Source: Prevotellaceae bacterium
GTDB taxonomy: Bacteria; Bacteroidota; Bacteroidia; Bacteroidales; Bacteroidaceae
Length of the DNA: 53,620 nucleotides
Direction of reading: 5' to 3'
Assembly: GCA_029226205.1 (NCBI GenBank)
Contig: JAQXXT010000100.1
Location: 1-53,620, forward strand
Below are positions 95 through 16,348 of the stretch, in pieces; the stretch's first letter is position 1, and each line of letters opens with the position of its first letter. Below the pieces are notes generated by a model. The model saw only the letters and a list, made by a program, of their open reading frames with translations, did not search any database and was not told the DNA's origin. A program made the translations under genes and the position numbers.

Positions 95-194
95 ATGAAT
101 CAAAATGATCCACACAAGGCTGCATCGCGGATACGCTTACATACCTTCACTCCACGTGGGGATGCTATCAAAGAGCTCTTCATATATGTCACTC

Positions 195-226
195 TTGGCA
201 GCAAAATGAAAAAAAATTATACTTTG
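195..226 (+). promoter_or_regulatory. possible weak promoter of hsp20 with long leader
   Basis: TTGG at 195-198 and TACTTTG at 220-226 are spaced about 21 bases apart, roughly as expected for -33 and -7 boxes, but the -7 is one base short of TAnnTTTG. The stretch from 195 to about 275 is repeated at 14327-14406 in the hsp20 scar. If used, it gives a leader of about 170 bases. In the rest of 62-402 I see no gene; the open frame at 95-361 has no family resemblance. Confidence 0.3.
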
Positions 227-388
227 CTGACAAAACAAGACAGAAATGGCACACGCGAGGGCGGCTGTGCACGTGGGCACGCTTGTTGCAATATCACGGG
301 TGAAGTTCGGAAGTCGGACGAAGGACAACGCAAGGCGTCCGGAGGACGATGGACAGGCTGAGGATAAACAAAGGTTTAAAACATAATT

Positions 389-394
389 AGGAGG
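389..394 (+). promoter_or_regulatory. strong Shine-Dalgarno of hsp20
   Basis: AGGAGG sits 8 bases before the ATG at 403. Strong Shine-Dalgarno sites are rare in Bacteroidota, so this suggests high translation and fixes the start at 403 (a second ATG follows directly at 406). Confidence 0.6.
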
Positions 395-402
395 TTTGCT
401 TT

Positions 403-831
403 ATGATGTTACCAATGTTGAGTGGTATGAATTCTTGGTTGGATAATGATTTCGATGATATGTTGAACACCAACTGGATGCCGCGCGTGAACGCTACGGC
501 GCCCGCTATCAACGTCAAGGAGAATGCCGATGCCTACGATGTAGAGTTGGCTGCCCCGGGCACTACGAAGGAGGACTTCAAGGTGAACGTTGACAATGAT
601 GGTAATCTGATTATCAAGATGGAACACAAGGAGAACAAGAAGGACGAGAACAAGAAGGAGCACTATCTGCGCCGCGAGTTCTCCTACAGCAATTACGAAC
701 AGGCACTCTCGCTGCCTGACGATGTTGAGAAAGACAATATCGCAGCAAAAGTTGAGAATGGTGTGCTGCATGTAACGCTTCCTCGCACTCATAAGGCAGA
801 GAAAGAGACCAAGAAGATTGAGGTCGCATAA
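403..831 (+). CDS. small heat-shock protein, Hsp20/alpha-crystallin family
   Basis: The 142-residue protein is a cytosolic ATP-independent chaperone that holds unfolding proteins until Hsp70 or ClpB can refold them. After a short variable N-terminus (MMLPMLSGMNSWLDNDFDDM) comes an alpha-crystallin domain from about residue 30, with the usual 'DAYDVELAAPG' strand, 'KVNVDNDGNLIIKMEH', a charged loop, and the closing 'NGVLHVTLPR' strand with the A-x-x-x-N-G-V-L motif. Length is normal for the family. It stands alone, with a strong Shine-Dalgarno in front and an intrinsic terminator behind. Pieces of this gene and both its flanks recur as a scar at 14327-14477 beyond the PUL. Confidence 0.93.
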   Translation: MMLPMLSGMNSWLDNDFDDMLNTNWMPRVNATAPAINVKENADAYDVELAAPGTTKEDFKVNVDNDGNLIIKMEHKENKKDENKKEHYLRREFSYSNYEQALSLPDDVEKDNIAAKVENGVLHVTLPRTHKAEKETKKIEVA

Positions 832-859
832 CGATATCAACTTTCTTAGAATAAATCAG

Positions 860-890
860 GGGATTGTCCACGAGGGCAATCCTTTTTTTT
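860..890 (+). terminator. intrinsic terminator of hsp20
   Basis: GGATTGTCC (861-869) pairs with GGGCAATCC (874-882) around a four-base loop, with one G-T pair, followed by eight T. A perfect-stem copy of it ends the hsp20 scar at 14468-14499. Confidence 0.8.
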
Positions 891-1058
891 ATTTCTTCAA
901 AAATTAATCATCTGGATTTCCCTTTACCGGCTATTCAACGACCTCTTTCTGGCCAATAATAATATAAAGACCCCGTTACAGTTTTTTGTCTTCCGAGATT
1001 CGCATACTTCCATTAAACTTTTTAATCTCAATATTTCCCCTATTTTTATATTTTTTAG

Positions 1059-1066
1059 TATCTTTG
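1059..1066 (+). promoter_or_regulatory. -7 promoter box for the PUL regulator
   Basis: TATCTTTG matches TAnnTTTG and lies 20 bases before the GTG start at 1086. No clear -33 box is visible. Confidence 0.6.
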
Positions 1067-1085
1067 CACGGTAAACTTAATCAAC

Positions 1086-4000
1086 GTGCGTAGGGCATTC
1101 ATCTTTTTTTATATTGTCTTCCTCATCCTTCTGACCGGGGGAAGGAGCTGGGCGGCATCAACAGCGACATTACGGCGCAGTCTATTCATGACGGCGAACA
1201 TCAACACTGCTGAGGGCTTGTCGAGCGCCCGTACCTATTCCGTCGTCGAGGGACGGGACGGGGCGATTTGGATAGCCACGAAGGCCGGTGTGGATCGGTA
1301 TAATGGCCAGACGGTGAAGAACTACCGCCTCTCGGAGAGCCTGCGCTATTGTGACGCCAGCGGACTGACGATCCGTCTCTTCCATACGCCGCAGGGTGAC
1401 CTCTATGCCTATGACAACAAGGGACATATTTATACCTACAGCCCTTTCCTCGAAACATTTGTACTCCGATATAACCTCGCCAGTCTTATGGGTGGCTCAT
1501 GGATAGTCAATGCCGCAGCCCTCGATCACCGTGGAACTCTGTGGGTGGCTACCGACCGCGGACTCTGTCGTGTGTGTCGGGAAGGAAGAGCCTCGCTATT
1601 GCTTCGTGGCCATTATCTCTACGATGTGGAGTCACTGTCTATGGGCCTGACCATTGGCGCTGCCGACGGCGTCTATCTCCTCCGAGGAGCCCAAGTCAGA
1701 AAGGTGACGTCCGACGCCGCCGTTCTATCCATGTATGAGGACCGCGCCCGACATCTGATATGGCTGGGTACGTTCCACGATGGCGTGAAGGTTTATCGCA
1801 GCGATACCTTCCGGCCGGTGCCAGTTGTCGGTTTGGAGGCTGTCCCGCAAATGCCGGTACGGGCCCTAATTGTCTGGGACCATCGCACGCTGCTCTTCGG
1901 CATCGACGGCGCGGGAGTCTATAGCTATGATTTCCCAACCCATAAGGCCCTTCCGTTGCTCAACACCGACGGACGGCCCGACAACAGTCTTCAGGGCAAT
2001 GGCGTCTACTGTCTCCTCCGGGACCATACGGGCAACCTATGGATTGCCAGTTATACGGGTGGTATAGACCTTGCCTGTCCCACGGGCAATGACTTTTCTT
2101 TCGTCCGTCATGAATATCTCAATTCCCAAAGTCTGATCAACAACAGTGTCAACGATATCCTGATGACTCCAGACGGCAGACTGTGGTATGCCACCGATGA
2201 TGGTATCAGCATCTACGACGGAAAGACCGGCCATTGGGCCCACACCTTATATAATAAGGTAGTGCTCAGTCTCTGTGCCCTGCCTTCGGGCACCATTCTC
2301 GCCGCCACCTATGGCAATGGTGTCTATGCCGTCAACGGGGGAGAAGGCCGGCTGATCTATGGCACCGCTTTAGGAAACCTGAAGACTAATTATGTCTACA
2401 GTCTCTTGCTGGACAGCCGTGGTGGACTGTGGATCGGTTGTCTCGATGGTCCGCTGACCCATGTCACCGGCTCCCGTCGGGAAGAATATCCCATACAGGA
2501 GATACAATGCATGGTGGAGCCGCCGGATCACCGCACCGTCATCGTCGGTACAACCCATGGCTGTTACCGCATCAATGAGACCACTGGCCGCCAGACCCGA
2601 TTCTTTTATCCCGAACAATATCCCGGAGCCATCTACAACTATTTCGTCAACGCCCTCGCCTTCGACGGTCCTGACCGCCTATGGATTGCCACGGATGGTG
2701 GCGGTCTGTACTGCTATCATCCCTCCACCCGTCGTGTGGAGAATCTTACGACCCATCAGGGACTCCCATCAAATGTTGTCAGTTCCCTGATATGGGATGA
2801 TCGTCATCAGTTATGGATGGGTACGGACCGTGGTCTCGCCTGTCTGCATGGACGTACGGTGGGACTCGTCAACTATGTGAAAGGATTCGAGTGTGAGTAC
2901 AAGCGTATGGCGGCAGCATATCTCCGTGGCGGTCGGCTGGCTTTCGGCAGTTGTCAGGGAGCTGTCATCATCAATCCCCGGCAGATCCTTGGCCTCAGTT
3001 ATGAGGCGCCACTGCGTATCACCGATATCCGTGTAGAGGGCGTCCCTGTCGACAGTGCCTGGCGCGTAAGGTTCTATCCGATGTTCCGTCGGCATGAACT
3101 TACGCTCAGCCATCAGGAGAACACGCTGACCGTTTCTTTCGAAAGTATCAACTACCGTTGCCGCAACGACATAGAATATCAGTGTTTCCTCGAGGGTTAT
3201 GACCACCAGTGGAGCGCCCTCTTCCCCCAGCAGGATGTCCGTTTCGCCAACCTTCCTCCCGGCGACTACACTCTCCATGTGAAGAGTGTCAGCAAGAGCA
3301 GTCTGCAGGTGCTCGGCGAGGCCACGCTGCACATCACCATCCATGAGCCGTGGTGGAACACGCTATGGGCCTGGACAGCCTATCTGCTGCTCATAGGATG
3401 GCTCGTCTATATGGGCTGGGACTATTACCGCGGTCGACTGCGCCAGCGCTATGACCGTGAGAAGATCGATTTCTTCATCAATACAACTCATAACATCCGT
3501 ACACCGCTGACCCTCGTCCTCGCTCCCTTGCGTGATATCGCTGCCGACGACACACTCTCCGCCCGTAGCAGGAAGTTTCTGCAAATGGCCCGGGAGAACG
3601 GCAACCGCCTAATGACGATGATCTCCGGGTTGCTGGACTTCCAAAAAGCGGACATCGGGCACCACGAGGATCATCCGCAGCTGCTCAGCGTCTCTGCCAT
3701 TCTTCATGAACAGCAGCATCGCTTTGACTTGGTAGCCTCAGAGAAGGGTATCCAACTGACGACGGAAAGTCCGGACGAGGACCTACTGTTGATGGCCGAC
3801 AAGACCATTCTCGACCTTGTATTCGAGAATCTCATCTCCAATGCCATCAAATATACGCCCCGTGGCGGTACCGTCCTGCTCAGAGCGACGGCAGCAGCCG
3901 GCCGTCTGTCCCTTGCCGTCTGCGACACGGGCATCGGCATTCCCCGTCAGGACCGCCGCCAACTGTTCTCCTCCTTTTTCCGCGCTTCCAATGCCGACAA

Positions 4001-4994
4001 GGGCAAAGGATATGGCCTCGGTCTGCGCATCACGCGCCAACTCGTCTCTCGTCTGGGCGGCGAGCTCTCCTGGACGAGCGAGGAAGGACGTGGTACCACG
4101 TTCACCGTGACATTGCCCCTGCTGTCGCCTCACCAGGCCACGACGGAGACATCGGGAGAGGAAAAGGGGAAGGATACGCTGCTCTTCGTCGATGACAATG
4201 AAAGTCTGCGTCAATATATGCGCATGGCTTTCTCACCACGTTATCACGTGGTGACGGCGTCTGATGGCGAGGCTGCCTTAGCCTATCTGCGTGATGGTGT
4301 CTGCGATATTGTCGTCTCCGATATCATGATGCCCGGCATTCAGGGAGACGAGCTCTGCCGCCGTATCAAGGAGAACAAGGACACGGCGTGGCTTCCCGTG
4401 ATCCTCCTCACGGCCAAAAGCGGTAAGGACTTCATGATCGACGGCCTCCATCAAGGAGCAGACGATTATATCGCCAAACCTTTCGACGCCGATATTCTGG
4501 CCGAGAAGATCTCCTCCATCCTCGCCAACCGCCGCCGACTGAGCGACTATTACCTCCGGAAGAGCATGGAACAGGCCCGGCAGACGATGAAAAAGCGAAA
4601 GAATGCCGCATCGCCCACTTCTACATCTTTAGCGGACAGCGGAGAGGACGTATCTTCCTCACCTTCCGAGCCCGTTGACCCCAAGGACCAGGCGTTCGTC
4701 GCCAAGGCTACGCAATTGGTCCTCGACCATATCAGTGACAACACATTCACCATCGACCGCCTCTGCCGGGAGATGGCGATGAGCCGTACCCTTTTCTATG
4801 GTCGTCTGAAGACGCTCACAGGTCAGTCACCCCAGGACTTCATCCGTCTGCTACGCCTGGAGCGTGCCGCCACCCTCTTACGCGACGGCGTTCCCGTCCT
4901 CGATGTTTCCATCCGTACAGGATTCGTCAATGCCAAATATTTCAGTACGGTATTCAAGAAACATTTCGGCGTTTCACCGAGTAAATACCGTTAA
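1086..4994 (+). CDS. hybrid two-component system sensor/regulator (HTCS) of the PUL
   Basis: One 1302-residue chain joins sensor, kinase, receiver and DNA-binding parts. It begins with GTG and a signal peptide (to about residue 24). Periplasmic beta-propeller repeats follow (motifs such as 'GxLWIAT', 'LWIGCLDG'), then a Y_Y_Y domain at about 680-740 and one membrane helix near 760-782. Next are a HisKA box with His802, an HATPase domain from about 905 ('ENLISNAIKYTP', 'GIGIP', 'GYGLGL'), a receiver with Asp1079 in 'VVSDIMMPG', and a C-terminal AraC helix-turn-helix from about 1210. In HTCS proteins the propeller binds an oligosaccharide and the AraC part switches on the adjacent PUL. The residue after the phospho-His is Asn rather than the usual Glu or Asp. 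The gene has its own promoter and sits just upstream of the PUL operon it probably controls. Confidence 0.95.
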   Translation: MRRAFIFFYIVFLILLTGGRSWAASTATLRRSLFMTANINTAEGLSSARTYSVVEGRDGAIWIATKAGVDRYNGQTVKNYRLSESLRYCDASGLTIRLFHTPQGDLYAYDNKGHIYTYSPFLETFVLRYNLASLMGGSWIVNAAALDHRGTLWVATDRGLCRVCREGRASLLLRGHYLYDVESLSMGLTIGAADGVYLLRGAQVRKVTSDAAVLSMYEDRARHLIWLGTFHDGVKVYRSDTFRPVPVVGLEAVPQMPVRALIVWDHRTLLFGIDGAGVYSYDFPTHKALPLLNTDGRPDNSLQGNGVYCLLRDHTGNLWIASYTGGIDLACPTGNDFSFVRHEYLNSQSLINNSVNDILMTPDGRLWYATDDGISIYDGKTGHWAHTLYNKVVLSLCALPSGTILAATYGNGVYAVNGGEGRLIYGTALGNLKTNYVYSLLLDSRGGLWIGCLDGPLTHVTGSRREEYPIQEIQCMVEPPDHRTVIVGTTHGCYRINETTGRQTRFFYPEQYPGAIYNYFVNALAFDGPDRLWIATDGGGLYCYHPSTRRVENLTTHQGLPSNVVSSLIWDDRHQLWMGTDRGLACLHGRTVGLVNYVKGFECEYKRMAAAYLRGGRLAFGSCQGAVIINPRQILGLSYEAPLRITDIRVEGVPVDSAWRVRFYPMFRRHELTLSHQENTLTVSFESINYRCRNDIEYQCFLEGYDHQWSALFPQQDVRFANLPPGDYTLHVKSVSKSSLQVLGEATLHITIHEPWWNTLWAWTAYLLLIGWLVYMGWDYYRGRLRQRYDREKIDFFINTTHNIRTPLTLVLAPLRDIAADDTLSARSRKFLQMARENGNRLMTMISGLLDFQKADIGHHEDHPQLLSVSAILHEQQHRFDLVASEKGIQLTTESPDEDLLLMADKTILDLVFENLISNAIKYTPRGGTVLLRATAAAGRLSLAVCDTGIGIPRQDRRQLFSSFFRASNADKGKGYGLGLRITRQLVSRLGGELSWTSEEGRGTTFTVTLPLLSPHQATTETSGEEKGKDTLLFVDDNESLRQYMRMAFSPRYHVVTASDGEAALAYLRDGVCDIVVSDIMMPGIQGDELCRRIKENKDTAWLPVILLTAKSGKDFMIDGLHQGADDYIAKPFDADILAEKISSILANRRRLSDYYLRKSMEQARQTMKKRKNAASPTSTSLADSGEDVSSSPSEPVDPKDQAFVAKATQLVLDHISDNTFTIDRLCREMAMSRTLFYGRLKTLTGQSPQDFIRLLRLERAATLLRDGVPVLDVSIRTGFVNAKYFSTVFKKHFGVSPSKYR

Positions 4995-5052
4995 TGTCAG
5001 ATTAGAAACCTTTTCTGTCAGCTATCAAACCCATCTGATACCTTCTTTCCCG

Positions 5053-5060
5053 TACCTTTG
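5053..5060 (+). promoter_or_regulatory. -7 promoter box of the PUL structural operon
   Basis: TACCTTTG lies 30 bases before the GH16 start, in the 95-base gap after the HTCS gene. It is probably the site from which the HTCS drives GH16-susC-susD-SGBP-GH3, since the later genes are only 15-25 bases apart. Confidence 0.65.
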
Positions 5061-5089
5061 CCGTCGAAACAACAATCATCTAAAAACGT

Positions 5090-5971
5090 ATGAACGGCAA
5101 ACTATTCAATGTATTGGTTCTGAGTCTCTTCACGGCTATTTCCATGAAGGCCCAGAATTACAAACTGGTGTGGAGCGATGATTTCAACGCCAACACCTTG
5201 GGGAAGAACTGGAATGTGGAAACAGTTGCTTCCCCTTATAATCATGAACTGGAGTACTACACCCCCCGTCAGGAGAATGTGACCGTCAAAGACGGCACCC
5301 TAATCCTCACGGCTCGTCGTGAGCATTATGGCGACAAAGCCTTCACATCCGGCCGTGTCAACAGTCGTCAGAAAGTTTATTTCGCCCATGGCATGATTGA
5401 GGCACGCATCAAACTGCCGCGCCTCTCCAATGGTCTATGGCCCGCCTTCTGGATGATGGGCGAGGATGATGATGTTCACTCCTGGCCTGCCTGCGGTGAG
5501 ATCGACATCATAGAGATGGGCGAGCATGGCGGTATCAGTTCCGGACAGTCTGACCGCTGGGTCGGCGGCACCATCCACTGGGGCGAAGACGCGCAGCATC
5601 ACCAGCAATGGTCCGACCAGGGACAGCATGCCTACGACTATACCCTTGCCGGTGACGACCAATACCATATCTATACGATGACATGGGATGACACTTATAT
5701 AAGAATGTATATTGACCATTCCAACAAGCCGTATTTCACAGCCGCCATCAACAAGCGTATCGATTCCCGTATCACATCGGACATTTATATGCATAAACCT
5801 TTTTATATACTCTTCGACCTCGCCGTCGGCGGTGATTTCACCGGCATTCTGAGTCCCGAAGGCATCACTGCCCTTGCCGACGAGGGCAGCGAGGCGAAGA
5901 TGTATATCGACTACGTCCGTGTATACCAAGAGAAAGGTCAGGAGAATCTTGTCTGTCCTGACCGTCATTAA
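5090..5971 (+). CDS. glycoside hydrolase family 16 endo-beta-glucanase, secreted
   Basis: The 293-residue protein has an N-terminal signal peptide (to about residue 21, ISMKAQ) and a single GH16 domain. The catalytic signature GEIDIIEMGE puts the nucleophile at Glu137, the assisting Asp at 139 and the acid/base at Glu142. This spaced E-x-D-x-x-E form is typical of laminarinases and mixed-linkage glucanases. Other GH16 hallmarks are 'LVWSDDFN', 'GRVNSRQKVYFAHGMIEARIKLP' (split) and 'GLWPAFWMMG'. It probably cuts beta-1,3- or beta-1,3-1,4-glucan into oligosaccharides at the surface or in the periplasm. It is first in the PUL operon, 25 bases before susC. There is no lipobox, so it may be periplasmic or exported rather than a lipoprotein. 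Confidence 0.9.
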   Translation: MNGKLFNVLVLSLFTAISMKAQNYKLVWSDDFNANTLGKNWNVETVASPYNHELEYYTPRQENVTVKDGTLILTARREHYGDKAFTSGRVNSRQKVYFAHGMIEARIKLPRLSNGLWPAFWMMGEDDDVHSWPACGEIDIIEMGEHGGISSGQSDRWVGGTIHWGEDAQHHQQWSDQGQHAYDYTLAGDDQYHIYTMTWDDTYIRMYIDHSNKPYFTAAINKRIDSRITSDIYMHKPFYILFDLAVGGDFTGILSPEGITALADEGSEAKMYIDYVRVYQEKGQENLVCPDRH

Positions 5972-5995
5972 TCCGCATTAAAAGAACTAAAGCAT

Positions 5996-8900
5996 ATGAA
6001 TCAAAACAATCTGAGACTAACACGCCTCGTCTGTATGGGTCTTCTCTCCCTGGGAGCCTTACAGCAGGCCAATGCCGGTACGGCCGCCAGCGCCATCACA
6101 CAGCAGGCCACGGCCATTCAAGGTATCGTCACCGATGGTACGGAACCTATTATCGGGGCCACCATCAAGGCTGTGGGATCCACAGACGGCACCGTCACCG
6201 ATCTCGACGGTAAATTCTCCCTTGACGTGAAGCCCGGGACCCCACTCGTCATTAGTTATGTAGGTTATAAGACCATCACCGTCAAAGCCACAGCTCATAT
6301 GACCGTGACCCTCCATGAGGATGCGAAAAACCTGAAGGAGGTCGTCGTCACGGCCTTGGGCATCAAGCGCGACCGCAAGGCCCTCGGCTATGGTCTTACG
6401 GAAGTCAAGGGCTCCGATCTTCAGAAAGCCAAGGAGACGAATGTCATCAACTCCCTTGAAGGAAAGGTCGCCGGCCTCGTCGTTCAGGGCACTGCCGGTG
6501 GCGCCTCCGGCTCTACCCGTGTCCTTCTACGTGGCAATACGGAGATAGCCGGTGACAACCAGCCGCTCTATGTCGTCGATGGCGTGCCTCTTGATAATAC
6601 GAATTTCGGCAGTGCCGGTACTTCCGGTGGCTATGACCTTGGTGACGGCATCTCAGCCATCAATCCCGATGATATCGAGTCGATGTCCGTATTGAAAGGT
6701 CCCGCCGCCTCCGCCCTCTATGGCAGCCGTGCCTCTCACGGTGTCATCCTCATCACGACGAAGAAAGCCAGCAAGGCGAAAGTCAGCGTGGAGTATAATG
6801 GCTCCATGACCTTCGACACGCAGTTGGCAAAATGGGATAACATCCAGAATGTCTACGGCCAGGGCTACAACGGCCAGTATGCCTCCACGGCAACATCGGG
6901 CACGAACAGCAGTTGGGGTCCCAAGGCCGACAACTTCGGCGTGACCTATTTCGATGGTGTCACCCGTCCCTTCCTGATGTATCCCGACAACACGTCAAAC
7001 TTTTTCCGCACGGGCCTGACGGCGCAGAACTCCGCCATCCTCTCCGTAAGCAGCGGCAAGACGGGTGTGCGCTTCTCCTTCACCGACATGCGCAACAAGG
7101 ATATCCTCCCCAAGACCCATATGAGCCGTGACAACTACAACCTCCGCGTCACCACGTCGGCAGGTCCCGTCGACTTCGACTTCAACGTGGCCTATACCCG
7201 TGAGGATGTGAAGAACCGTCCGGCTCTCGGCGACTCCCAGAGCAATGTCGGCAAGAACCTCATGACCCTCGCCGGCACGTACAACGAGGACTGGCTGCGC
7301 CACTATGAAAATGCCGACGGCTCCTATGCCAACTGGAACGGCAATGATATGTACAATATCAATCCTTACTGGGATTTGTATAGGAACCGCAACACCTCAG
7401 GCAAGGATGTCTTCCGTCTCACCGGCAAGGCCATCTGGAACATCAATAAGCACTTGAAACTACAAGGCACCATCGGTTCGAACATGAACTTCATGAATTT
7501 CGAGGACTATTCCGCCAAGACGACACCGGGCAACATGGCCGGTACGCTGCAGACCGACAAGTTTGAGAACAAGACCATCAACGCTGAACTCCTCGCCCTG
7601 TATAACAACTCCTGGGGCGACTTCGACTTCAACGGTACCCTCGGCGGCAATATCTACCGCGTGAACAACAAGACGACGACGCTCTTCGGCTTGAGCCAGC
7701 AGATGGATAATGTCATCTCCATCGCCAACTACTCTGAGCAGAGCATCATCCCCGACCAGTATAAGAAGCAGATCAGCTCGCTTTATGGCAATGCCAGCAT
7801 CGGCTACCGACATACCTACTATCTTGAGGGCACCCTCCGCGGCGATAAGTCATCGACGCTGCCGGTGAACCACAACGTATATGTCTATCCTTCCTTGTCG
7901 GGCAGCTTTGTCTTCTCTGAGCTGCTGAAGAACAAGAAGATCATCAACTACGGAAAGCTCCGCGCTTCCTGGGCCAAGGTGGGAAGCGACACCGATCCTT
8001 ACAAGCTCGCCCTGAACTACAAGACAGGCCAGTACAGCTACAGTGGCTATACCATCGGGTATATCAATAACACGGTGATGCCCAACAAGGACCTCAAGCC
8101 GACGATGACCAACTCCTTTGAACTCGGCCTCGAGGCCAAGCTGTTGAACAACCGCATCGGCGTCGACTTCACCTATTATAATCAGATGTCGAAGGACCAG
8201 ATCATCTCACTCGCCTCTTCCGCCGCCTCCGGTTACGACTACCGCCTCATCAATGCGGGAAAGATCCAGAACAAGGGTATCGAACTGGCCATCAACGCAC
8301 GTGCCGTACAGTATAAGGATTTTGCATGGGATCTCGGCATGAACTTCTCCAAGAATGTCAACAAGGTGAAATCACTCACCGACGGCATGGACTATTTCGA
8401 GCTTGAGAAGGCCACCTGGTGCAATGTCTCCGTAGGTGCTGAGGTCGGCGAGAAATACGGTTCCATCATCGGTCCAGACTTCAAGCGCACCGCCGACGGA
8501 CAGATGATTATCAACGCCAAGACCGGTCTGCCGGAAGTTGACTCGAAGACACGTACCCTCGGCAATGCCTCCTGGGACTGGACGGGCGGTTTCTATTCCA
8601 CCTTCTCCTATAAGAACTTCCGTCTCTCCGCCTCCTTCGACGTGAAGGTTGGCGCCGACCTCTTCTCAATGTCCATGCGCTCCGCCTACGCCACGGGCCG
8701 TGCTAAGGAGACCCTCGCCGGCCGTCAGGAGTGGTACGACTCCGAGGAAGCACGCCAGGCTGCCGGCATGACCATCGACCAGTGGCGTCAGTCTGGCAAC
8801 TGCAAGGGATATATCGTCCCCGGTGTCATCGACAATGGCGACGGCACCTACCGTCAGAATGACATCCCCGTCAACCCGCAGAGTTTCTGGCAGAGTGCCG

Positions 8901-9169
8901 CCACCAACTGCCCGAGCATGTTCATCTACGACAACTCCTACGTGAAATGTCGTGAGATCACCTTCGGCTACACCTTCCCGCAGCATCTCCTGGGAAAAGT
9001 CATCAAGAGCATGACGGTATCTTTCGTGGCCCGTAACCCGTTCATCGTATGGAAGAACATTCCGAATATCGATCCGGACTCCGGTTACAACACCTCCGGT
9101 CTCGGTCTGGAGTATGGCTCTCTGCCCTCCCGCCGCAGCTACGGCATGAACGTCAATATTAAGTTCTAA
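5996..9169 (+). CDS. SusC-like TonB-dependent outer-membrane transporter
   Basis: The protein has 1057 residues, a normal SusC length. A signal peptide ends near residue 27 (QQANAG). A carboxypeptidase-like barrel-partner domain follows at about 38-118 ('GIVTDGTEPIIGATIKAVGS', 'VISYVGYKT'), then a SusC plug at about 120-260 ('EVVVTALGI', 'NSLEGKVAGLVVQG', 'PLYVVDGVPLDN') and a beta-barrel ending in aromatic NVNIKF, a typical outer-membrane C-terminus. With the SusD protein encoded 16 bases downstream it should form a lidded importer that takes up glucan oligosaccharides using TonB energy. Confidence 0.95.
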   Translation: MNQNNLRLTRLVCMGLLSLGALQQANAGTAASAITQQATAIQGIVTDGTEPIIGATIKAVGSTDGTVTDLDGKFSLDVKPGTPLVISYVGYKTITVKATAHMTVTLHEDAKNLKEVVVTALGIKRDRKALGYGLTEVKGSDLQKAKETNVINSLEGKVAGLVVQGTAGGASGSTRVLLRGNTEIAGDNQPLYVVDGVPLDNTNFGSAGTSGGYDLGDGISAINPDDIESMSVLKGPAASALYGSRASHGVILITTKKASKAKVSVEYNGSMTFDTQLAKWDNIQNVYGQGYNGQYASTATSGTNSSWGPKADNFGVTYFDGVTRPFLMYPDNTSNFFRTGLTAQNSAILSVSSGKTGVRFSFTDMRNKDILPKTHMSRDNYNLRVTTSAGPVDFDFNVAYTREDVKNRPALGDSQSNVGKNLMTLAGTYNEDWLRHYENADGSYANWNGNDMYNINPYWDLYRNRNTSGKDVFRLTGKAIWNINKHLKLQGTIGSNMNFMNFEDYSAKTTPGNMAGTLQTDKFENKTINAELLALYNNSWGDFDFNGTLGGNIYRVNNKTTTLFGLSQQMDNVISIANYSEQSIIPDQYKKQISSLYGNASIGYRHTYYLEGTLRGDKSSTLPVNHNVYVYPSLSGSFVFSELLKNKKIINYGKLRASWAKVGSDTDPYKLALNYKTGQYSYSGYTIGYINNTVMPNKDLKPTMTNSFELGLEAKLLNNRIGVDFTYYNQMSKDQIISLASSAASGYDYRLINAGKIQNKGIELAINARAVQYKDFAWDLGMNFSKNVNKVKSLTDGMDYFELEKATWCNVSVGAEVGEKYGSIIGPDFKRTADGQMIINAKTGLPEVDSKTRTLGNASWDWTGGFYSTFSYKNFRLSASFDVKVGADLFSMSMRSAYATGRAKETLAGRQEWYDSEEARQAAGMTIDQWRQSGNCKGYIVPGVIDNGDGTYRQNDIPVNPQSFWQSAATNCPSMFIYDNSYVKCREITFGYTFPQHLLGKVIKSMTVSFVARNPFIVWKNIPNIDPDSGYNTSGLGLEYGSLPSRRSYGMNVNIKF

Positions 9170-9185
9170 CTCAAAGACAAGTAAA

Positions 9186-10925
9186 ATGAAAACGATATTA
9201 AAAAAACATAGTCGGATCTTACATCTGATGATAGGAGTCATGGTCGCCGCCTTCACCTGCATTTCCTGTTCCGATGACACCATGGAGACGTTGAACACTG
9301 ACGGCTCAAAGGCGTCCGCCATTGATCCCAATGCACAACTGACGACTTCTCTGTTGCAGACCTACGGCGATTTCTCCCTCATGGATACCTACCGCAGTTA
9401 TATCAGCGGCTTCACGCAGCAGTTCGCCGGTGGCTGGAATGTCACCAATTATGCCGGGTCTGTCCATGCCGACAACGATCAGGAGAGTCTCGCCTGGTCC
9501 CGTTACTACTCCATCTCCATCAAGAACCTCGTGGATGCTATCTCGAAGACGGCCGACCAGCCTAATGTCAATGCCGCCCTGCGTATCCACCGCATCTACC
9601 TCCTCTCCTTGCTGACGGATATCTATGGTGATGTCCCGGCAACGGAGGCCGGCAAGGCTTATACCGCCGGCATCGCCAACCCGCGCTATGACAAACAGCA
9701 GAACATCTACTCCTACTTCTTCGATGAGCTCGACTCCTGTGAGCGACAGCTCGGCACGGGCACCGACAATATCACGGGCGACGTGACGAGCCTCGGGGGA
9801 AATATCAGCAAATGGAAGAAATATGCCAACTCCCTGCGTATGCGCTACGCCATGCGTATCTCCGACGTCGACCCCCAGAAGGCCGAGCAGGAATTTGAGA
9901 AAGCCTACAACAGTCCCGACGGTTTCATCGCCTCTACCGATGAGGATGCCTACGTGAAATACCTCAACAAGCCATTCACGCTCTATGAGGGTGCGCGGAA
10001 ATATGACTTCCGTGTCAATGCCTTCAGCGAGATCCTCTACGGTCAGGACGCAACCTCTCCGTCCTTCATCTGCTCTACGTTATTCAACATGCTGAAAGAC
10101 AACAACGACCCGCGCCTCTACCGCATCTGCCGTCATTATATCAACACGGCACGCTCCAATATCACCCCAAGCAGCGATGGCAATATCGATGTTACGGATG
10201 AGGTCGTGGCCTATCTGAAGCGTAACAACATGGAGGAGTCGCCTTGTAATCCCGGTGCCGCATGGTATGACAACTGGGTGTCGGCACCTGCCAACAGTGA
10301 GATACCTACCTTGGACAACCTGGTGAAGAACAATCCCTCTGTAGGATATGACGCCAACAATGCGCCGGCACGCATGATGCGCCCGTTCCTCTCCATCGAC
10401 TTCGAACAGCCCGACAACCCCGGCATCCTCATCACCTCCGCGGAGGTCAACTTCCTCCTCGCCGAAGCCAAGACGAAAGGCTGGAAGGTCAGCGGCAGCG
10501 CCGAAGACTATTATGAGAAGGGTATTCGCCAGTCCATGGAGTTGCTCAACGACCTCTATCTGAAGAGCAACAAGATCAGCGAGAAGGAGATCAGCACTTT
10601 CATCGACGCCCATCACCTCGGCAGCAATCCGAAGGAGGATATCAACACACAGGCATGGATCCTGCATCTCACCAATCCTTCCGAGGCGTGGGCCAACCTT
10701 CGTCGTTCCGACTATCCCGTGCTCATGGACCGTACGAAACTCAGCACCTTTGACGGCTTCACCTACGACGACGCCAACCTCTCGACACCCGTACGCCTGC
10801 AGTACCCATCCCTGGAATCCCGTTACAACAAGAGCAACTACGAGGATGCCATCCAGCGCCTCGGTGGCACCGACAACTGGCACCAGCGGATGTGGTGGGA
10901 TACAAAAGATGGTAATTTCAAATAA
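9186..10925 (+). CDS. SusD/RagB-family glycan-binding lipoprotein (SusD-like)
   Basis: The 579-residue protein has a lipoprotein signal peptide with lipobox ending CISC (Cys near residue 28). It continues 'SDDTMETLNTDGSKAS' and helix-rich TPR-like sequence with 'YISGFTQQFAGGW', 'LLTDIYGDVP' and 'NFLLAEA', as in SusD-like proteins (probably the SusD-like_2 branch). It should cap the SusC barrel and bind the oligosaccharide cargo. It is 16 bases after susC and 15 before the next lipoprotein gene. The subfamily assignment is inference; the SusD-like role from position and lipobox is firm. Confidence 0.9.
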   Translation: MKTILKKHSRILHLMIGVMVAAFTCISCSDDTMETLNTDGSKASAIDPNAQLTTSLLQTYGDFSLMDTYRSYISGFTQQFAGGWNVTNYAGSVHADNDQESLAWSRYYSISIKNLVDAISKTADQPNVNAALRIHRIYLLSLLTDIYGDVPATEAGKAYTAGIANPRYDKQQNIYSYFFDELDSCERQLGTGTDNITGDVTSLGGNISKWKKYANSLRMRYAMRISDVDPQKAEQEFEKAYNSPDGFIASTDEDAYVKYLNKPFTLYEGARKYDFRVNAFSEILYGQDATSPSFICSTLFNMLKDNNDPRLYRICRHYINTARSNITPSSDGNIDVTDEVVAYLKRNNMEESPCNPGAAWYDNWVSAPANSEIPTLDNLVKNNPSVGYDANNAPARMMRPFLSIDFEQPDNPGILITSAEVNFLLAEAKTKGWKVSGSAEDYYEKGIRQSMELLNDLYLKSNKISEKEISTFIDAHHLGSNPKEDINTQAWILHLTNPSEAWANLRRSDYPVLMDRTKLSTFDGFTYDDANLSTPVRLQYPSLESRYNKSNYEDAIQRLGGTDNWHQRMWWDTKDGNFK

Positions 10926-10940
10926 TCAACATTCAGAAAA

Positions 10941-11945
10941 ATGAGTATGAAACTTTTCAGAAACCAAATAGCCGCCATAGTGGCACTGTTCAGCATGCTT
11001 CTGCCGGCCGGAGTGCTTACCTCCTGCTCCGATGATGATCCTTACTTCACGGCTACGGAGGATGACGCGCCGCGCATCCTCAATACGGACCTCGTCTACG
11101 ACGGCTCACCGCTTTCCCTCAACGGGAAGGCGACGGAGAACTTCAAATACAATGTCATTGTCACACCCGCCAACTATACCACGGTGACCTGGTTCCTCGA
11201 CGGCGAGCAGATCCATGAGGGCGACAGCATCGACCAGCCGATCCTCGCCGGTGTCTACAACCTGAAGATTGTCGCCACAACAACAAAGGGCAAGTCGACC
11301 TCCCGCACCGTCACGCTGACGATAACACCGGGCGACAACGACCCCGTCCTCGGCACGAAGAGCTATGAGCGCTGGGTGGCTCCCGGCGCTACGGCAACGA
11401 TCCACGACTGCCGGAACATCAGTGATATCACGGGTGTGCTCATCGGCAGCCAGGCAGCAACGGATGTCACCGCCAACGGCACCACCCTGAAATTCACAGC
11501 TCCCGCCAACCTTGCCGACAGCACCTACCGCATCGTCCTCGTCGACAAGGACGGCAAGCAGTATGGCGGTGGTAAGATCCAGGTGACGACGACGCCTCCT
11601 GCCGAGATGACGCTGTGGGAAGGCCATCACTACGTGTCGTGGGATCTCCCCGATGGTGATGCCCACAAGACGTTCAACCTGCTGGGCAAGGATGTCTTCG
11701 CCACGATGAAAGCCGGCACCATCCTGAAGATCAACTACTCGCTCAACACCGCCGACAGCTATCATCAGCTGCAGGTGATGACGGGTTGGTGGACCGTTCT
11801 CCCCGGTACTTCCGTACAGACACTCACGGCCGACGGCTCCATAGAGGTGACGCTCACGCAGGAGGACCTCGACCTCATCAGCGCTCAGGACGGCTTCCTC
11901 ATCGGCGGCCACGGCTTCTATGTCGACCGCATTATCGAAGAATAG
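10941..11945 (+). CDS. surface glycan-binding lipoprotein of the PUL (SGBP, SusE/F position)
   Basis: The 334-residue protein has a lipobox ending LTSC (Cys near residue 29) followed by an acidic SDDDP stretch, typical of lipoproteins exported to the cell surface. An Ig/PKD-like domain covers roughly 45-130 ('TTVTWFLDGEQIHEGDS'). A second strand-rich domain lies near 130-220, and a C-terminal domain at about 225-334 ('LWEGHHYVSWD', 'LKINYSLN', 'YHQLQV', 'DGFLIGGHGFYVDRI'). That last domain resembles the tandem repeats of the secreted protein at 46114-47214. By position after susD it should hold polysaccharide at the surface for GH16 and SusCD. The family is recognised by architecture and context, not by a catalytic motif. 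Confidence 0.8.
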   Translation: MSMKLFRNQIAAIVALFSMLLPAGVLTSCSDDDPYFTATEDDAPRILNTDLVYDGSPLSLNGKATENFKYNVIVTPANYTTVTWFLDGEQIHEGDSIDQPILAGVYNLKIVATTTKGKSTSRTVTLTITPGDNDPVLGTKSYERWVAPGATATIHDCRNISDITGVLIGSQAATDVTANGTTLKFTAPANLADSTYRIVLVDKDGKQYGGGKIQVTTTPPAEMTLWEGHHYVSWDLPDGDAHKTFNLLGKDVFATMKAGTILKINYSLNTADSYHQLQVMTGWWTVLPGTSVQTLTADGSIEVTLTQEDLDLISAQDGFLIGGHGFYVDRIIEE

Positions 11946-11960
11946 TTACTTACACTTTTT

Positions 11961-14282
11961 ATGATGAAACATACAATCCTCTCTCTGATGGCCCTGGTGC
12001 TCGCATGTACATCGGTACATGCCGGCACCCCGGCCATTTATCGTGACCCCGCCATTGAACAGAAGGTGGAGGCAATGCTCTCCCGTCTCTCCCTGCGCCA
12101 GAAGGCCGGACAGATGGTAGAGCTCGTCGCCGACCTCTTCGGCAAGAATGACGCCGCGGGAGTGTTCCACATCGACAAAGCCCGAACCGACTCCATCCTG
12201 AGCCGTTATCAGATTGGCTCCATCCTCAACGCGCCGAACACGACGGCGCCGACAGCCCGTCAGTGGCAGGAATATCTCCGGGATATCCAAGAGAGTTCCA
12301 TGCGCCTCATCGGCATACCCTGTCTCTATGGCCTCGACCAGAATCACGGCTCCACCTATACGCAAGACGGCACCCTCTTCCCGCAGAACATCAATGTGGC
12401 AGCAACCTTCAACCGTGCCATTGCCCACGACTGCGCGGCAGCGACAGCCTATGAGACACGTGCCGTCAGCATCCCCTGGACCTACAGTCCTACCGTCGAC
12501 CTCGGACGTGATCCCCGCTGGCCCCGTCAGTGGGAGAACTTCGGTGAGGACTGCTACCTGAATGCCGCCATGGGCAGTGCGATGGTCAAAGGCTTCGAGG
12601 GTGATGATCCCAATCATATCGATGACTACCATATCGCCGCCTGCATGAAGCACTACCTCGGCTATGGCGTGCCATGGACAGGCAAGGACCGCACACCAGC
12701 CTATATCTCTCCCTCGGACCTGCGGGAGAAGCATTTCATGCCCTTCCGTACCGGTGTCCGCAGTGGCGCCCTCAGCGTGATGGTCAACTCGGCCTCTGTC
12801 AACGGCATGCCCGTCCATGCCAACAAGACACTGCTCACGGGATGGCTGAAGGAAGGCATGACATGGGATGGTGTCCTCGTCACCGACTGGGCGGATGTCA
12901 ACAACCTCTATACGCGTGAATGTGTCGCCAAGGACAAGAAAGACGCCTTGCGAATCGCCATCAATGCCGGTATCGACATGGTCATGGAACCGTATAGCGC
13001 CAATGCCGTCGACCTCATTGAACAGTTGGCCCAGGAAGGCGCCATCCCCATGAGCCGTATTGATGATGCCGTACGCCGTATCCTCCGCATGAAATACCGG
13101 TTGGGCCTCTTCGACCGGCCTACGGAAAATCTGAAGAATTATCCAAAATTCGGCGGAAAAGAATTTGCCAAACTGTCCTATCGTGGTGCCGTAGAGAGTA
13201 TGGTACTGCTGAAGAATACCGATCACATCCTTCCCCTGAAAAAAGGAACGCGCATCCTCCTTACAGGTCCCAACGCCAATCAGATGCGCTGTCTCGACGG
13301 CGGATGGAGCTATACTTGGCAAGGAAATCTCACCGACCGCTTCGCCGGGAAGTATCATACCATCTACGAGTCCCTCTGCGACCGCTTCGGCAAGGACCAT
13401 GTCTTGTTGCGACAGGGCGTGACCTACGACGAGAAGGGAAGATATGATGAGGAGAATATACCCGATTATGCCGCTGCCGTGAATGCCGCCGACAGTGCCG
13501 ACATCATCGTGGCCTGCATCGGCGAGAACTCCTATACGGAGACCCCCGGCAACCTTAGTGACCTCACGCTCTCCGCTCGTCAGCGTACGCTCGTAAAGAA
13601 ACTGGCAGAAAGCGGGAAACCCATCATCCTCATCCTCAACGAGGGCCGTCCGCGCCTCATCAGTGATATCGAGCCACTGGCCAAGGCCGTCGTCGACATT
13701 TTCCTGCCGGGAAACTATGGCGGTGATGCCCTCGCGGCCCTCCTCTCCGGCGATGAGAATTTCAGCGGGAAAATGCCCATCACCTATCCGAAGGAGATCA
13801 ACTCCCTGGCCAACTACGACTTCAAGAAGAGTGAGGAAGTGGGGACAATGGCCGGGGCCTACGACTACAACGCCCGCATCACCCAGCAGTGGCCGTTTGG
13901 CTACGGCATGAGCTACACCTCCTTCGCCTACAGTAATCTGAGGGTGGAGAAAGATCATTTCATTCCCGGTGATACGATCTCCCTCTCCGTGGATGTCACG
14001 AATACGGGCAACCGGGAAGGCAAGGAGAGCGTGCTGGTCTACAGCAGTGATGTGGTGGCGTCGATGACTCCCGACGGCCGCCGCCTGCGTGCCTTCGAGA
14101 AGGCAGACCTCAAGCCCGGCGATACACGTACCTTCACGTTCCACATTCCCGCCGACGACCTCGCCTTCGTCGACTGGGACGGACAGTGGCGCCTGGAAGC
14201 CGGTGAGTTCCGCTTCTCCGTCGCCGACCAGTCCGTCTCCGTATGGTGTGACAAGACGAGGGTGTATGCTGCGGAGCGATAA
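11961..14282 (+). CDS. glycoside hydrolase family 3 beta-glucosidase, periplasmic
   Basis: The 773-residue protein has a signal peptide (to about residue 20, SVHAGT), a GH3 N-terminal barrel, a GH3 C-terminal alpha/beta domain and a fibronectin-type III-like tail near 690-765. The nucleophile is Asp309 in 'VLVTDWADV'. The acid/base region includes 'GENSYTETPGNLSDL'. Other family motifs are 'KHYLGYG', 'DLGRDPRWPRQWENFGED' and 'KNTDHILPL'. It should release glucose from imported beta-gluco-oligosaccharides in the periplasm and complete the PUL pathway. The start is ambiguous between two adjacent ATGs (11961 and 11964). Its operon terminator is the one carried by the hsp20 scar at 14468-14499. 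Confidence 0.93.
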   Translation: MMKHTILSLMALVLACTSVHAGTPAIYRDPAIEQKVEAMLSRLSLRQKAGQMVELVADLFGKNDAAGVFHIDKARTDSILSRYQIGSILNAPNTTAPTARQWQEYLRDIQESSMRLIGIPCLYGLDQNHGSTYTQDGTLFPQNINVAATFNRAIAHDCAAATAYETRAVSIPWTYSPTVDLGRDPRWPRQWENFGEDCYLNAAMGSAMVKGFEGDDPNHIDDYHIAACMKHYLGYGVPWTGKDRTPAYISPSDLREKHFMPFRTGVRSGALSVMVNSASVNGMPVHANKTLLTGWLKEGMTWDGVLVTDWADVNNLYTRECVAKDKKDALRIAINAGIDMVMEPYSANAVDLIEQLAQEGAIPMSRIDDAVRRILRMKYRLGLFDRPTENLKNYPKFGGKEFAKLSYRGAVESMVLLKNTDHILPLKKGTRILLTGPNANQMRCLDGGWSYTWQGNLTDRFAGKYHTIYESLCDRFGKDHVLLRQGVTYDEKGRYDEENIPDYAAAVNAADSADIIVACIGENSYTETPGNLSDLTLSARQRTLVKKLAESGKPIILILNEGRPRLISDIEPLAKAVVDIFLPGNYGGDALAALLSGDENFSGKMPITYPKEINSLANYDFKKSEEVGTMAGAYDYNARITQQWPFGYGMSYTSFAYSNLRVEKDHFIPGDTISLSVDVTNTGNREGKESVLVYSSDVVASMTPDGRRLRAFEKADLKPGDTRTFTFHIPADDLAFVDWDGQWRLEAGEFRFSVADQSVSVWCDKTRVYAAER

Positions 14283-14326
14283 ATCCAATCCACCATGCGC
14301 GGAACATCAAGTCCCCACTGACACGG

Positions 14327-14477
14327 TTGGCAGCAAAATGAAAAAAAAATCATATTTTGCTGATAAAACGAGACAGGAATGACACACTCGCAGAGTGTTG
14401 TGCAGGTCGGGAGAATGCCGATGCCTACGATGTAGATAACGATATCAACTTTCTTAGAATAAATCAGGGGATTGTCC
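14327..14477 (+). pseudogene. scar of a second hsp20 copy with internal deletions
   Basis: Three blocks match the hsp20 locus in the same order and strand. 14327-14406 resembles 195-275 (the upstream region: TTGGCAGCAAAATGAAAAAA and onward, with scattered changes). 14411-14436 equals 520-545, inside the coding region ('ENADAYDV'), over 26 identical bases. 14437-14477 equals 829-869, from the hsp20 stop codon through the first terminator arm, over 41 identical bases. The pieces between have been lost. Nothing translatable as Hsp20 remains. No other gene is visible in 14283-14593. Confidence 0.88.
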
Positions 14478-14499
14478 TTGGGGACAATCCCTTTTTTTT
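14468..14499 (+). terminator. intrinsic terminator after the PUL, inherited from the hsp20 scar
   Basis: GGGATTGTCC (14468-14477) pairs perfectly with GGACAATCCC (14482-14491) around a TTGG loop, followed by eight T. It is about 185 bases after the GH3 stop and is the first terminator after the PUL operon. Confidence 0.85.
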
Positions 14500-14559
14500 G
14501 TTTGAAAAAGGTTTTTGTAAAAAATTCAACCCACAAAGAGAAATCCGGAAAATTATTCG

Positions 14560-14567
14560 TACTTTTG
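14560..14567 (+). promoter_or_regulatory. -7 promoter box for the DUF2156-GNAT gene
   Basis: TACTTTTG matches TAnnTTTG and lies 27 bases before the ATG at 14594. It shows that the open frame upstream of this ATG, which runs into the hsp20 scar, is not translated as part of the gene. Confidence 0.65.
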
Positions 14568-14593
14568 TTGCCGAAACTCATCGCAACAAGACT

Positions 14594-16348
14594 ATGATTC
14601 GATTTCATGATATCTCCGCGCGCGACCGGGAGCTCATCCAGCGCTATACGCTGAATGGGACGGGACGCAACTGTGACCTCTCCTTCGCCAACCTCATCAG
14701 CTGGCGGTTCCTCTACGACACGCAGTTCGCCATCATCGACGACTTCCTCGTCTTCCGTTTCTATACCGGCCGCCATCTGGCTTATATGGCCCCCATCGCC
14801 AAGCCCGTCATCCAGTCAGACGCCACTTACCAACAGCCTGCCGACAGCAGCTGTCCCGCTTCCGTCATCCGCCGGATGCGTGACGATGCCATCGCCATGG
14901 GCCAGCCGTTCCTGCTCATCGGCTGCAGCGGGTCAATGACCGACTGCCTCGAAGAGATCATGCCCGGCGAGTTCACCGTCAGGGCCGAGCGTGACTATTT
15001 CGACTATATCTATCTCCGGGAGAAGCTCGCCACGCTCTCCGGCAAGCATCTCCAGAGCAAGCGCAACCACTGCAACAAGTTCCGCGCCCTCTATCCCGAC
15101 TACGAATACCGTCCCCTCACCAAGAGCCTCATCCCAGAGTGTCTGCGTCTCGAGGAGAAATGGCGGAAAGAGACAAAGCAGGACGCCGAAGAGGAGGAAG
15201 ACAGGGAGCTCAGTGAGGAACTGCGTGCCATGACACGGGCTTTCGTCAACTGGGACTACCTCGACTGTCTCGGCGGCTGCATCTTCGTCGACGGCCAGCT
15301 CGTTGCCTTCACCTTCGGCTGTCCCATCACCCACGACACCTTCGATGTCTGTGTGGAAAAAGCCGACACACGCTACGAGGGCTCTTTCTCCATCATCAAC
15401 CAGGAGTTCGCGCGTCATCTGCCCGAACAATATATCTATATGAACCGTGAAGAGGATCTTGGTGCCGAGGGGCTGCGCAAGGCGAAACTATCCTATAAGC
15501 CTGCCATTCTCCTGGAGAAATATTCCATCATGGAGAAGAACCCGCTGAGCCTCTTCGAGGATGTCCACCGCATCAAGGCGGAGACGGAGCAGCTCTATGC
15601 CGCCACGTTCGATGATGCCGAGGCCTTCCGCAACCTCTATTTCAGTAAGGTATTCACCGATGAGCGGAACATCGTCTGTCAGATCGACAACCATGTCGTC
15701 GGCGCCCTTCAAGCCATCCCCTACCCGCTGCGGCAGGGACAACAGACCACGAACGCCAGTTATATCTATGCCGTATCCGTCGACATCGACTACCGTCGGC
15801 AGCATGTCGGCAGCAGTCTCATGCGCCAGGCCCATCACACGCTCTATTACCGTGGCACCGTCTTCTCGGTATTGATCCCCGCGGAGCCGTGGCTCTTCGA
15901 CTGGTATGCCGCCATGGGCTACACGCAGGTCGCCGATGCCATTGCGGCCCCCGGGGGTGTCGCTACCATGCCGTTCAGCACGTTCGACGAGTGGCAGCGG
16001 CAACAGCCCTGCATGGTGGAGCAGACCGAAGCATCCTTTGCCACGGCCCAGGAGGCCCTGCGCGTCTGTGGGGAGACCAACAGTCCCGCCGCCCCCGCCA
16101 TGCTCCGTGTCATCAATGCCCGCAAGGCCCTGCAGTTCTATGCCGCCCAGCATCCCGACACGACAGTCGACATCCGCGTGTACAACGACAAGGACATCGC
16201 GCTCAACAACACCTATTTCCATATCGCCGCCGGCCAATGCCGGCAGACAGACCGTCCGCTCCCCGATGCTCGTTCCCTGACCATCAGCGAGCTCGCCGTC
16301 TTCCTCTTCCATGCTTCCCATCCCGTCATGACGCTGATGCTGAACTGA
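14594..16348 (+). CDS. DUF2156 (LPG-synthase-like) fused to Eis-like GNAT acetyltransferase with SCP2-like tail
   Basis: The 584-residue cytosolic protein shows three regions. Residues about 1-290 resemble the DUF2156/phosphatidylglycerol-lysyltransferase C-terminal family ('LSFANLISWRFLYDTQFA', 'KHLQSKRNHCNKF', 'NREEDLGAEGLRKAKLSYKP'). Residues about 320-470 are a GNAT fold with an acetyl-CoA loop 'VDIDYRRQHVGSSLMRQ'. Residues about 490-584 ('MLRVINARKALQFYAA', 'ISELAVFLF') resemble the sterol-carrier-like domain that follows GNAT in Eis-type acetyltransferases. The start at 14594 is chosen because the promoter box lies just before it. The substrate is unknown: DUF2156 relatives move aminoacyl groups onto lipids, Eis relatives acetylate amines. 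The fusion is inferred from one uninterrupted frame. Confidence 0.75.
   Translation: MIRFHDISARDRELIQRYTLNGTGRNCDLSFANLISWRFLYDTQFAIIDDFLVFRFYTGRHLAYMAPIAKPVIQSDATYQQPADSSCPASVIRRMRDDAIAMGQPFLLIGCSGSMTDCLEEIMPGEFTVRAERDYFDYIYLREKLATLSGKHLQSKRNHCNKFRALYPDYEYRPLTKSLIPECLRLEEKWRKETKQDAEEEEDRELSEELRAMTRAFVNWDYLDCLGGCIFVDGQLVAFTFGCPITHDTFDVCVEKADTRYEGSFSIINQEFARHLPEQYIYMNREEDLGAEGLRKAKLSYKPAILLEKYSIMEKNPLSLFEDVHRIKAETEQLYAATFDDAEAFRNLYFSKVFTDERNIVCQIDNHVVGALQAIPYPLRQGQQTTNASYIYAVSVDIDYRRQHVGSSLMRQAHHTLYYRGTVFSVLIPAEPWLFDWYAAMGYTQVADAIAAPGGVATMPFSTFDEWQRQQPCMVEQTEASFATAQEALRVCGETNSPAAPAMLRVINARKALQFYAAQHPDTTVDIRVYNDKDIALNNTYFHIAAGQCRQTDRPLPDARSLTISELAVFLFHASHPVMTLMLN

Follow-up and report, generated by a model that had tools for sequence, protein, structure and literature searches.

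A predicted mixed-linkage beta-glucan utilization locus between an intact and a collapsed hsp20 unit, in a block nearly identical between a Prevotellaceae genome and Prevotella sp. AGR2160

Structure of the locus

We examined a contig of 53,620 bases (C100; this whole stretch is called the window below) from a draft Prevotellaceae genome, which spans 2.51 Mb in 124 contigs and is 86.8% complete. Near the left end of the window, a polysaccharide utilization locus (PUL) lies between two direct copies of a unit built around the chaperone gene hsp20. The upstream copy is intact, and the downstream copy is reduced to three pieces, which we call the scar. The features are as follows:

187 to 402, forward: upstream part of the hsp20 unit, with a dyad (TTGGCAGCAA-N19-TTGCTGACAA) at 195-233, a promoter-like match, and a leader
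403 to 831, forward: intact hsp20 gene, 142 amino acids (PF00011, E=5e-23)
858 to 890, forward: intrinsic terminator of hsp20 (hairpin of -14.7 kcal/mol, then a T-run)
1086 to 4994, forward: hybrid two-component system (HTCS) regulator of the PUL (Reg_prop, HATPase_c, Response_reg, HTH_18)
5090 to 5971, forward: predicted endo-beta-glucanase of glycoside hydrolase (GH) family 16 (domain match; best solved relative 5nbo)
5996 to 9169, forward: SusC-type transporter (Plug, CarbopepD_reg_2)
9186 to 10925, forward: SusD-type glycan-binding protein (domain match; solved relatives 9bam/9bal, of surface glycan-binding protein A [SGBP-A], then 6e60, of the mixed-linkage glucan utilization locus [MLGUL])
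10941 to 11945, forward: second surface glycan-binding protein (SGBP-B) in the SusE position (from position and syntenic homologues; without Pfam match)
11961 to 14282, forward: predicted GH3 beta-glucosidase (PF00933, PF01915, PF14310)
14319 to 14409, forward: scar piece 1, the upstream part of the second hsp20 unit with its dyad retained (sequence alignment)
14410 to 14436, forward: scar piece 2, 27 bases of hsp20 coding sequence corresponding to 519-545 (27/27 identical)
14436 to 14503, forward: scar piece 3, the stop-codon region and terminator of hsp20 corresponding to 828-894 (91% identity; hairpin of -17.6 kcal/mol)

The three scar pieces (14319-14503) have the same order and strand as their counterparts in the hsp20 unit at 187-894. 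In piece 1, positions 14319-14390 match 187-257 at 85%, and the match extends by eye to about 14409; the first 42 bases of piece 3 are, also by eye, identical to the hsp20 region. Within their own genome the pieces gave BLAST E-values of 1.2e-14, 1.6e-6, and 1.5e-19, so the similarity is not due to chance. All 34 of the 20-mers common to window 1-1000 and the rest of the window start within 14327-14458. Relative to the intact unit, the remnant lacks about 236 and 283 bases, with junction overlaps of 2 and 1 bases read from the sequence. The initial annotation had placed hsp20 upstream of the PUL and a collinear scar of 80, 26, and 41 bases downstream in the same orientation, and had explained the scar as a second hsp20 collapsed by two deletions. 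Our alignments agree: the piece sizes were right to within a few bases, and the downstream copy is an hsp20 unit minus two internal stretches.

Similarity between the two copies ends at the limits of the hsp20 unit. Outside the repeat, on both sides, the best comparison gave 15/40 matches, which equals the random median. We considered whether the scar was a dispersed element of its own genome and ruled this out, as only the window copies matched well in that 87% complete assembly. Across other species, a scar query gave short matches in 27 other genomes of 150 (strongest E=1.5e-4), which we judged to be chance, and the scar junction had no exact match among viral contigs.

Between the PUL and the next gene, scar piece 3 holds the only terminator-like sites on the forward strand. 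It forms a stronger hairpin than the intact unit does (-17.6 versus -14.7 kcal/mol), with differences that by eye fall in the loop or add pairing. From this prediction, piece 3 probably ends the PUL transcript. At the other end of the unit, about 100 bases of the hsp20 leader (300-402) are well conserved between copies among the alignments listed, and have no Rfam match; a search of window 1-16500 for Rfam-type RNA families returned none at gathering thresholds. The leader is a possible heat sensor.

The PUL itself has all of its reading frames open (HTCS, GH16, SusC, SusD, SGBP, and GH3). As judged from its predicted gene set, it is complete and of the mixed-linkage beta-glucan type, with SGBP-B assigned by position and synteny only. 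A SusC at least 56% identical was found in at least 33 other genomes of the 150 searched in the genus, a lower bound because five candidates were scored per genome. We also surveyed 20 PUL loci (9-15 kb each) and 20 hsp20 loci of relatives, leaving out HTCS matches below 32% identity and any match shorter than 40 residues; a separate comparison with relatives left out HTCS matches below 35% identity. The gene hsp20 was absent from 20/20 loci of this PUL type in other genomes, and a PUL of this kind was absent from 20/20 hsp20 loci. Linkage of the two was seen solely in the block described here.

A 14.6-kb block shared with Prevotella sp. AGR2160

Using the hsp20 protein as query against 84,980 species genomes (one per species; records very near the window may be missing), we obtained 38 loci. 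Exactly one was near-identical, at 99%, in the isolate Prevotella sp. AGR2160. Its contig NZ_AUJK01000029.1 begins 174 bases before the window start and continues across the PUL and the scar into the next gene. Over window 1-14646 the two genomes have 26 differences and no indel (99.8% identity), and the scar in AGR2160 is identical to that in the window; thus, both genomes found with the block carry the PUL together with the scar. From 14647 onward, 212/1702 bases of the next gene differ (87.5% identity). The features at this step are:

14594 to 16348, forward: phosphatidylglycerol lysyltransferase-like gene (LPG_synthase_C plus GNAT), the right homology arm
14594 to 14646, forward: first 53 bases of that gene, the stretch where the 99.8%-identical block ends (alignment to AGR2160)

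The last difference within the block is at 14123, none occur over 14124-14646, and the first of the 212 is at 14647. The crossover is accordingly placed by the absence of differences; 53 identical bases would arise with a chance of about 0.001 at 12.5% divergence. Codon counts show the same step, with 25/4487 codons differing in the seven block genes (11 synonymous, 14 not) and 169/585 in the next gene (110 synonymous, 59 not). Within the stretch read, all similarity between the window and AGR2160 ends a few bases past the stop codon of the next gene.

Beyond the block, the comparison of the two genomes covered window 16000-35900 and 20 kb of another AGR2160 contig. The former matched AGR2160 in nine segments at 82-93% on four contigs (40 of 446 candidates scored), one of which is the tail of the lysyltransferase-like gene; the latter matched the window genome in seven segments at 75-93% (40 of 233 scored). 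By this measure, the two genomes belong to different species, and the block stands out as far more similar than the adjoining and other DNA compared. Recent transfer of the entire block between the species, through homologous recombination, is the likely explanation. The block is shared at 99.8% with its scar already complete, and the identity step falls to the right of the scar, so the collapse would be older than the transfer. The step also falls inside the next gene, past the scar, and the repeats therefore did not set the right block boundary.

The left boundary is out of view, as each of the two contigs ends within a repeat:

1 to 140, reverse: end of a repeated, insertion sequence (IS)-like element (contig C17 of the same genome opens with the same 140 bases, then differs)

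This element may be IS66-like, with the end GTAAGCG. It contains the start of an open reading frame, MTAAERYEQVWNKFLVALKK, which continues in AGR2160; a Pfam search of this frame gave no match, and one sub-threshold NCBIfam line was noise. A gap of 46 bases separates the IS-like end from the hsp20 unit to its right. Among the annotated genes from hsp20 to the lysyltransferase-like gene we found no integrase, conjugation genes, or attachment sites, and the block had no megablast match in plasmid and phage collections. The IS-like end is present on the left side only and its strong second copy is in C17, not near the scar, an arrangement that does not make a composite transposon.

The site without the block was sought through the lysyltransferase-like gene, whose region was matched in 6/14 relatives searched by DNA, AGR2160 included. 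The two nearest outgroups for this gene, UBA2725 and RUG13783 (85-86% protein identity), carry a GH31 gene and an AraC-type regulator directly upstream of it (Pfam on the UBA2725 genes), and neither hsp20 nor the PUL was found there. Relative to these outgroups, hsp20, the PUL, and the remnant are thus additions, or else they were lost in the outgroups. The 72 bases around the start of the lysyltransferase-like gene are 89-92% identical even to the outgroups. We also note that this conserved gene has different neighbors in the window, AGR2160, and UBA2725/RUG13783, as if often relocated. A left flank of UBA2725 that seemed homologous to that of the window hsp20 was dropped, as the homology likewise starts at 187. 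Farther to the right, a tRNA-Arg (tct) gene at 22149-22226 explains why 77 bases are identical in a contig of hRUG908, a relative.

Dispersed hsp20 units in relatives

The hsp20 unit occurs in several copies per genome: four in H. mizrahii, three in P. lacticifex, and two each in AGR2160 and the metagenome-assembled genome CAMCBZ. Among the alignments listed, the copies are alike across the unit and have different flanks, including one within-genome pair that is 98.3% identical. In 10/11 within-genome pairs, similarity starts 181 to 208 bases before the start codon; the left edge of the window unit is at -216. The right edge ranges from +1 to +678 past the stop codon and falls at +54 to +70 in 6/11 pairs.

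A dyad, TTGKCAGYAA-N19-TTRCTGMCAA, sits at this left edge. It is present at the window hsp20 (195-233), at the scar (14327-14366), and at the 23 relatives' loci examined (within L151-L186). In 22/23 of these loci the half-sites match at 7 to 10 of 10 positions, and in L165 at 5; the scan took the best consensus match at each locus, which favors the consensus. Two loci (L159 and L164) have paired changes in both arms, and the dyad may be a regulator site or a hairpin. Directly 5' of one H. mizrahii unit lies a carbonic-anhydrase-like gene (L157:9246-9785), the 3' end of which, by eye, precedes some scars.

Flanks were also compared between species. On the left side, the flanks of the second copy in AGR2160 (72%) and of one copy in P. 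lacticifex (84%) resemble that of one H. mizrahii copy; in both alignments about 180 bases belong to the unit. On the right side, the flanks of these two copies resemble that of another H. mizrahii copy (93% and 86%). As read from the alignments listed, flanks reassort across hsp20 units. UBA7764 likewise joins two H. mizrahii flanks, which may be an assembly effect, as there are N runs within its hsp20.

Collapse is also found elsewhere. With the full H. mizrahii unit as query against 14 genomes, internally deleted units with the left edge kept were found at four loci in 3/14 genomes (two H. mizrahii loci, one on AGR2160 contig C21, and one in RUG143). The count excludes fragments that lack the left edge (e.g. 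G423 C3:217187, G430 C148:40080, and G422 C21:16141) or that lie at contig ends (G431, G432, G427, and G435). Three of the four have the same junction (-171/369) and partly matching flanks, and they probably go back to one event. We had considered these three scars as proof of a mobile deleted form and dropped the idea, as parts of their flanks match one another.

Among the matches listed, hsp20 units or remnants form a same-contig pair within 25 kb in eight cases, always in direct orientation. These pairs lie in the window, AGR2160 (C21), H. mizrahii (C47 and C48), RUG143 (C42), RUG753, G014 (C26), and G027 (C18). An intact unit followed by a collapsed one, as in the window, is seen on H. mizrahii C48 (about 2 kb apart), in RUG143 (about 16.5 kb), and on H. 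mizrahii C47 (about 23 kb). In G014 (L110:1270-16153), two intact direct units flank a 13.7-kb stretch with an alpha-L-rhamnosidase and an apiosidase-like gene. The units are 93% identical between -170 and about +13, and at its end the rhamnosidase gene carries a 31-base exact match to the 3' end of hsp20. The RUG753 contig has hsp20 at both ends (88 identical bases). The AGR2160 C21 pair consists of two fragments (L277:3863-4101 and 12142-12244) that adjoin in intact hsp20 and are here 8 kb apart in rearranged DNA; the fragment at 12142-12244 is identical to H. mizrahii at 103/103 bases. Because direct hsp20 pairs bracket other DNA in relatives, the window arrangement is one case of a recurring one.

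Origin of the arrangement

We favor the reading that the PUL entered between hsp20 copies by ectopic recombination of dispersed units. Units would have recombined at the wrong place, so that the PUL came to lie between two of them. The downstream copy then lost its two internal stretches, a loss that was likely tolerated because one intact hsp20 suffices, and the terminator that was retained would have taken up its predicted role for the PUL. The finished block would then have been transferred between species, with the right crossover in the first 53 bases of the lysyltransferase-like gene. The order of events would be duplication, collapse, and transfer, and we infer the order of the first steps. 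Taken whole, with the PUL bracketed by an intact and a collapsed unit and the entire 14.6-kb block moved by homologous recombination, this account seems to us about evenly balanced between right and wrong. The direct repeats are limited to the hsp20 unit and their flanks differ, as a single crossover would leave them, a pattern that also fits other routes. The strongest support for the idea of the initial annotation comes from the relatives, where direct pairs bracket other stretches of DNA, though no case shows the mechanism.

Several observations weigh against this reading. A relative with a single hsp20 beside the lysyltransferase-like gene and no PUL was not found in the two nearest outgroups, and we found no genome with two intact hsp20 copies around this PUL. 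Only two genomes carry the block, and that of the window is a draft of 124 contigs at 87% completeness. The left block boundary is unseen, and the comparisons with AGR2160 rest on 40/446 and 40/233 scored stretches. In the wider family, the within-genome AGR2160 pair is the exception to the common left edge, being alike only from about -101 to the stop codon; the G027 direct pair is old, at 67% identity; and no scar was found at the distal end of the 8.4-kb stretch that follows one H. mizrahii hsp20. The evidence for flank reassortment comes from draft assemblies, and the AGR2160 left flank is only 72% similar.

The initial annotation, which our results support in part, had proposed that the PUL was either inserted beside hsp20 or duplicated together with it. 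Insertion gains from the two outgroups that lack both and from the observation that hsp20 does not normally lie beside this PUL, and co-duplication does not hold, since the repeat is exactly the hsp20 transcription unit. A tandem duplication of hsp20 plus PUL followed by the loss of one PUL would account for the shared orientation of the copies, but similarity stops at the unit edges on both sides and no PUL-derived repeat lies beside the scar in window 1-16000, which makes this route highly improbable. It is more plausible, though still rather unlikely in our view, that hsp20 was duplicated first and the PUL was inserted later by an unrelated route, such as the neighboring IS-like element, with the repeats as bystanders. 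The confinement of the repeat to the hsp20 unit and the nearness of the IS-like end would fit such a history, as would the wide occurrence of related PULs never seen beside hsp20 in the surveyed loci. However, own-genome searches with window 1-200 and the scar region did not reveal a copy of the IS-like element on the right side of the PUL, and no genome among the matches listed has directly adjacent hsp20 units.

The main rival to a transfer is an assembly join at 14.6 kb: in a metagenome containing both species, the AGR2160-like block could have been connected by the assembler to the lysyltransferase-like gene of the other species, with no transfer at all. The hsp20-PUL-scar order would still be real, being present in the isolate AGR2160. 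The source genome is a fragmented draft, the step lies near the start of a gene conserved even in the outgroups, and the window and AGR2160 are not collinear past that gene. Yet the block differs from AGR2160 at its 26 places, no segment above 93% appears in the part compared (as partially scored) save the IS-like repeat end in C17, and the window genome has a single lysyltransferase-like gene at E <= 1e-60, a search that a short piece at a contig end would escape. We consider a join unlikely. Less probable again is mobility of the hsp20 unit itself: its left end would form a hairpin, and the two units around the PUL would act as the ends of a composite element. The left edge at the dyad in 10/11 within-genome pairs, among them the 98.3% identical pair with different flanks, the paired changes in the half-sites at two loci, and the retention of the left edge in collapsed units all point that way. 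Against it, the right edge is variable, the G014 pair begins at -170, and neither a target duplication nor a transposase was seen; a promoter and operator under selection would yield the same left edge, and the shared junction and partly shared flanks of three of the four other scars suggest common descent.

We thus retain ectopic recombination between dispersed hsp20 units, followed by collapse and transfer, as the favored origin. A broader proposition, which we consider doubtful, is that the hsp20 unit in the Prevotella/Hallella clade is a dispersed DNA cassette with a dyad at its left end, repeatedly copied and repeatedly collapsing. Its direct pairs would provide portable homology that brackets and rearranges cargo, for instance a glucan PUL or a rhamnosidase cluster, and its collapsed copies would be left as ready-to-use terminators.

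Comparison with known systems

PULs determine which fibers gut and rumen Bacteroidales can use, and base-level views of how they spread without conjugative elements are rare. In the present case, the identity step is mapped to the first 53 bases of a shared gene, and a collapsed hsp20 fossil helps to order the events. If dispersed hsp20 units do anchor recombination, then a chaperone gene would be among the causes of genome shuffling in the clade. Literature searches on multi-copy hsp20 in Prevotella, PULs between direct repeats, PUL transfer by recombination, and interspecies recombination in rumen Prevotella listed no relevant work, and PMC10769429 did not bear on these subjects.

The PUL resembles the MLGUL of Bacteroides ovatus, in that the window has HTCS, GH16, SusC, SusD, SGBP-B, and GH3 genes in one cluster. 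The endo-glucanase role is filled by GH16 in the B. ovatus MLGUL and by GH5_4 in the Segatella copri counterpart (PMC11784079). By that description, the window PUL is of the GH16 type, as in B. ovatus, and unlike the GH5_4 version of S. copri (PMC11784079). The PULs described in another study have syntenic SusC, SGBP-A, SGBP-B, and GH3 genes plus an HTCS, as in the window, and bear GH16_3 and/or GH158 (PMC7157763); the closest structures to the window SusD are those of SGBP-A and the MLGUL. The window PUL differs from the MLGUL in that it sits between two hsp20 units.

The porphyran PUL is carried on conjugative elements. The same study names it as horizontally acquired (PMC7157763), and the likeness to our block is that of a catabolic PUL thought to move between species. 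Unlike the porphyran PUL, the window block has no conjugation or integrase gene among its annotated genes, and its identity step lies inside a shared gene. Dispersed direct repeats such as rRNA operons and IS copies allow the intervening DNA to be gained, lost, or rearranged. Compared with ectopic recombination at those repeats, the repeat here is a small protein-coding unit, hsp20, present in two to four copies in four genomes.

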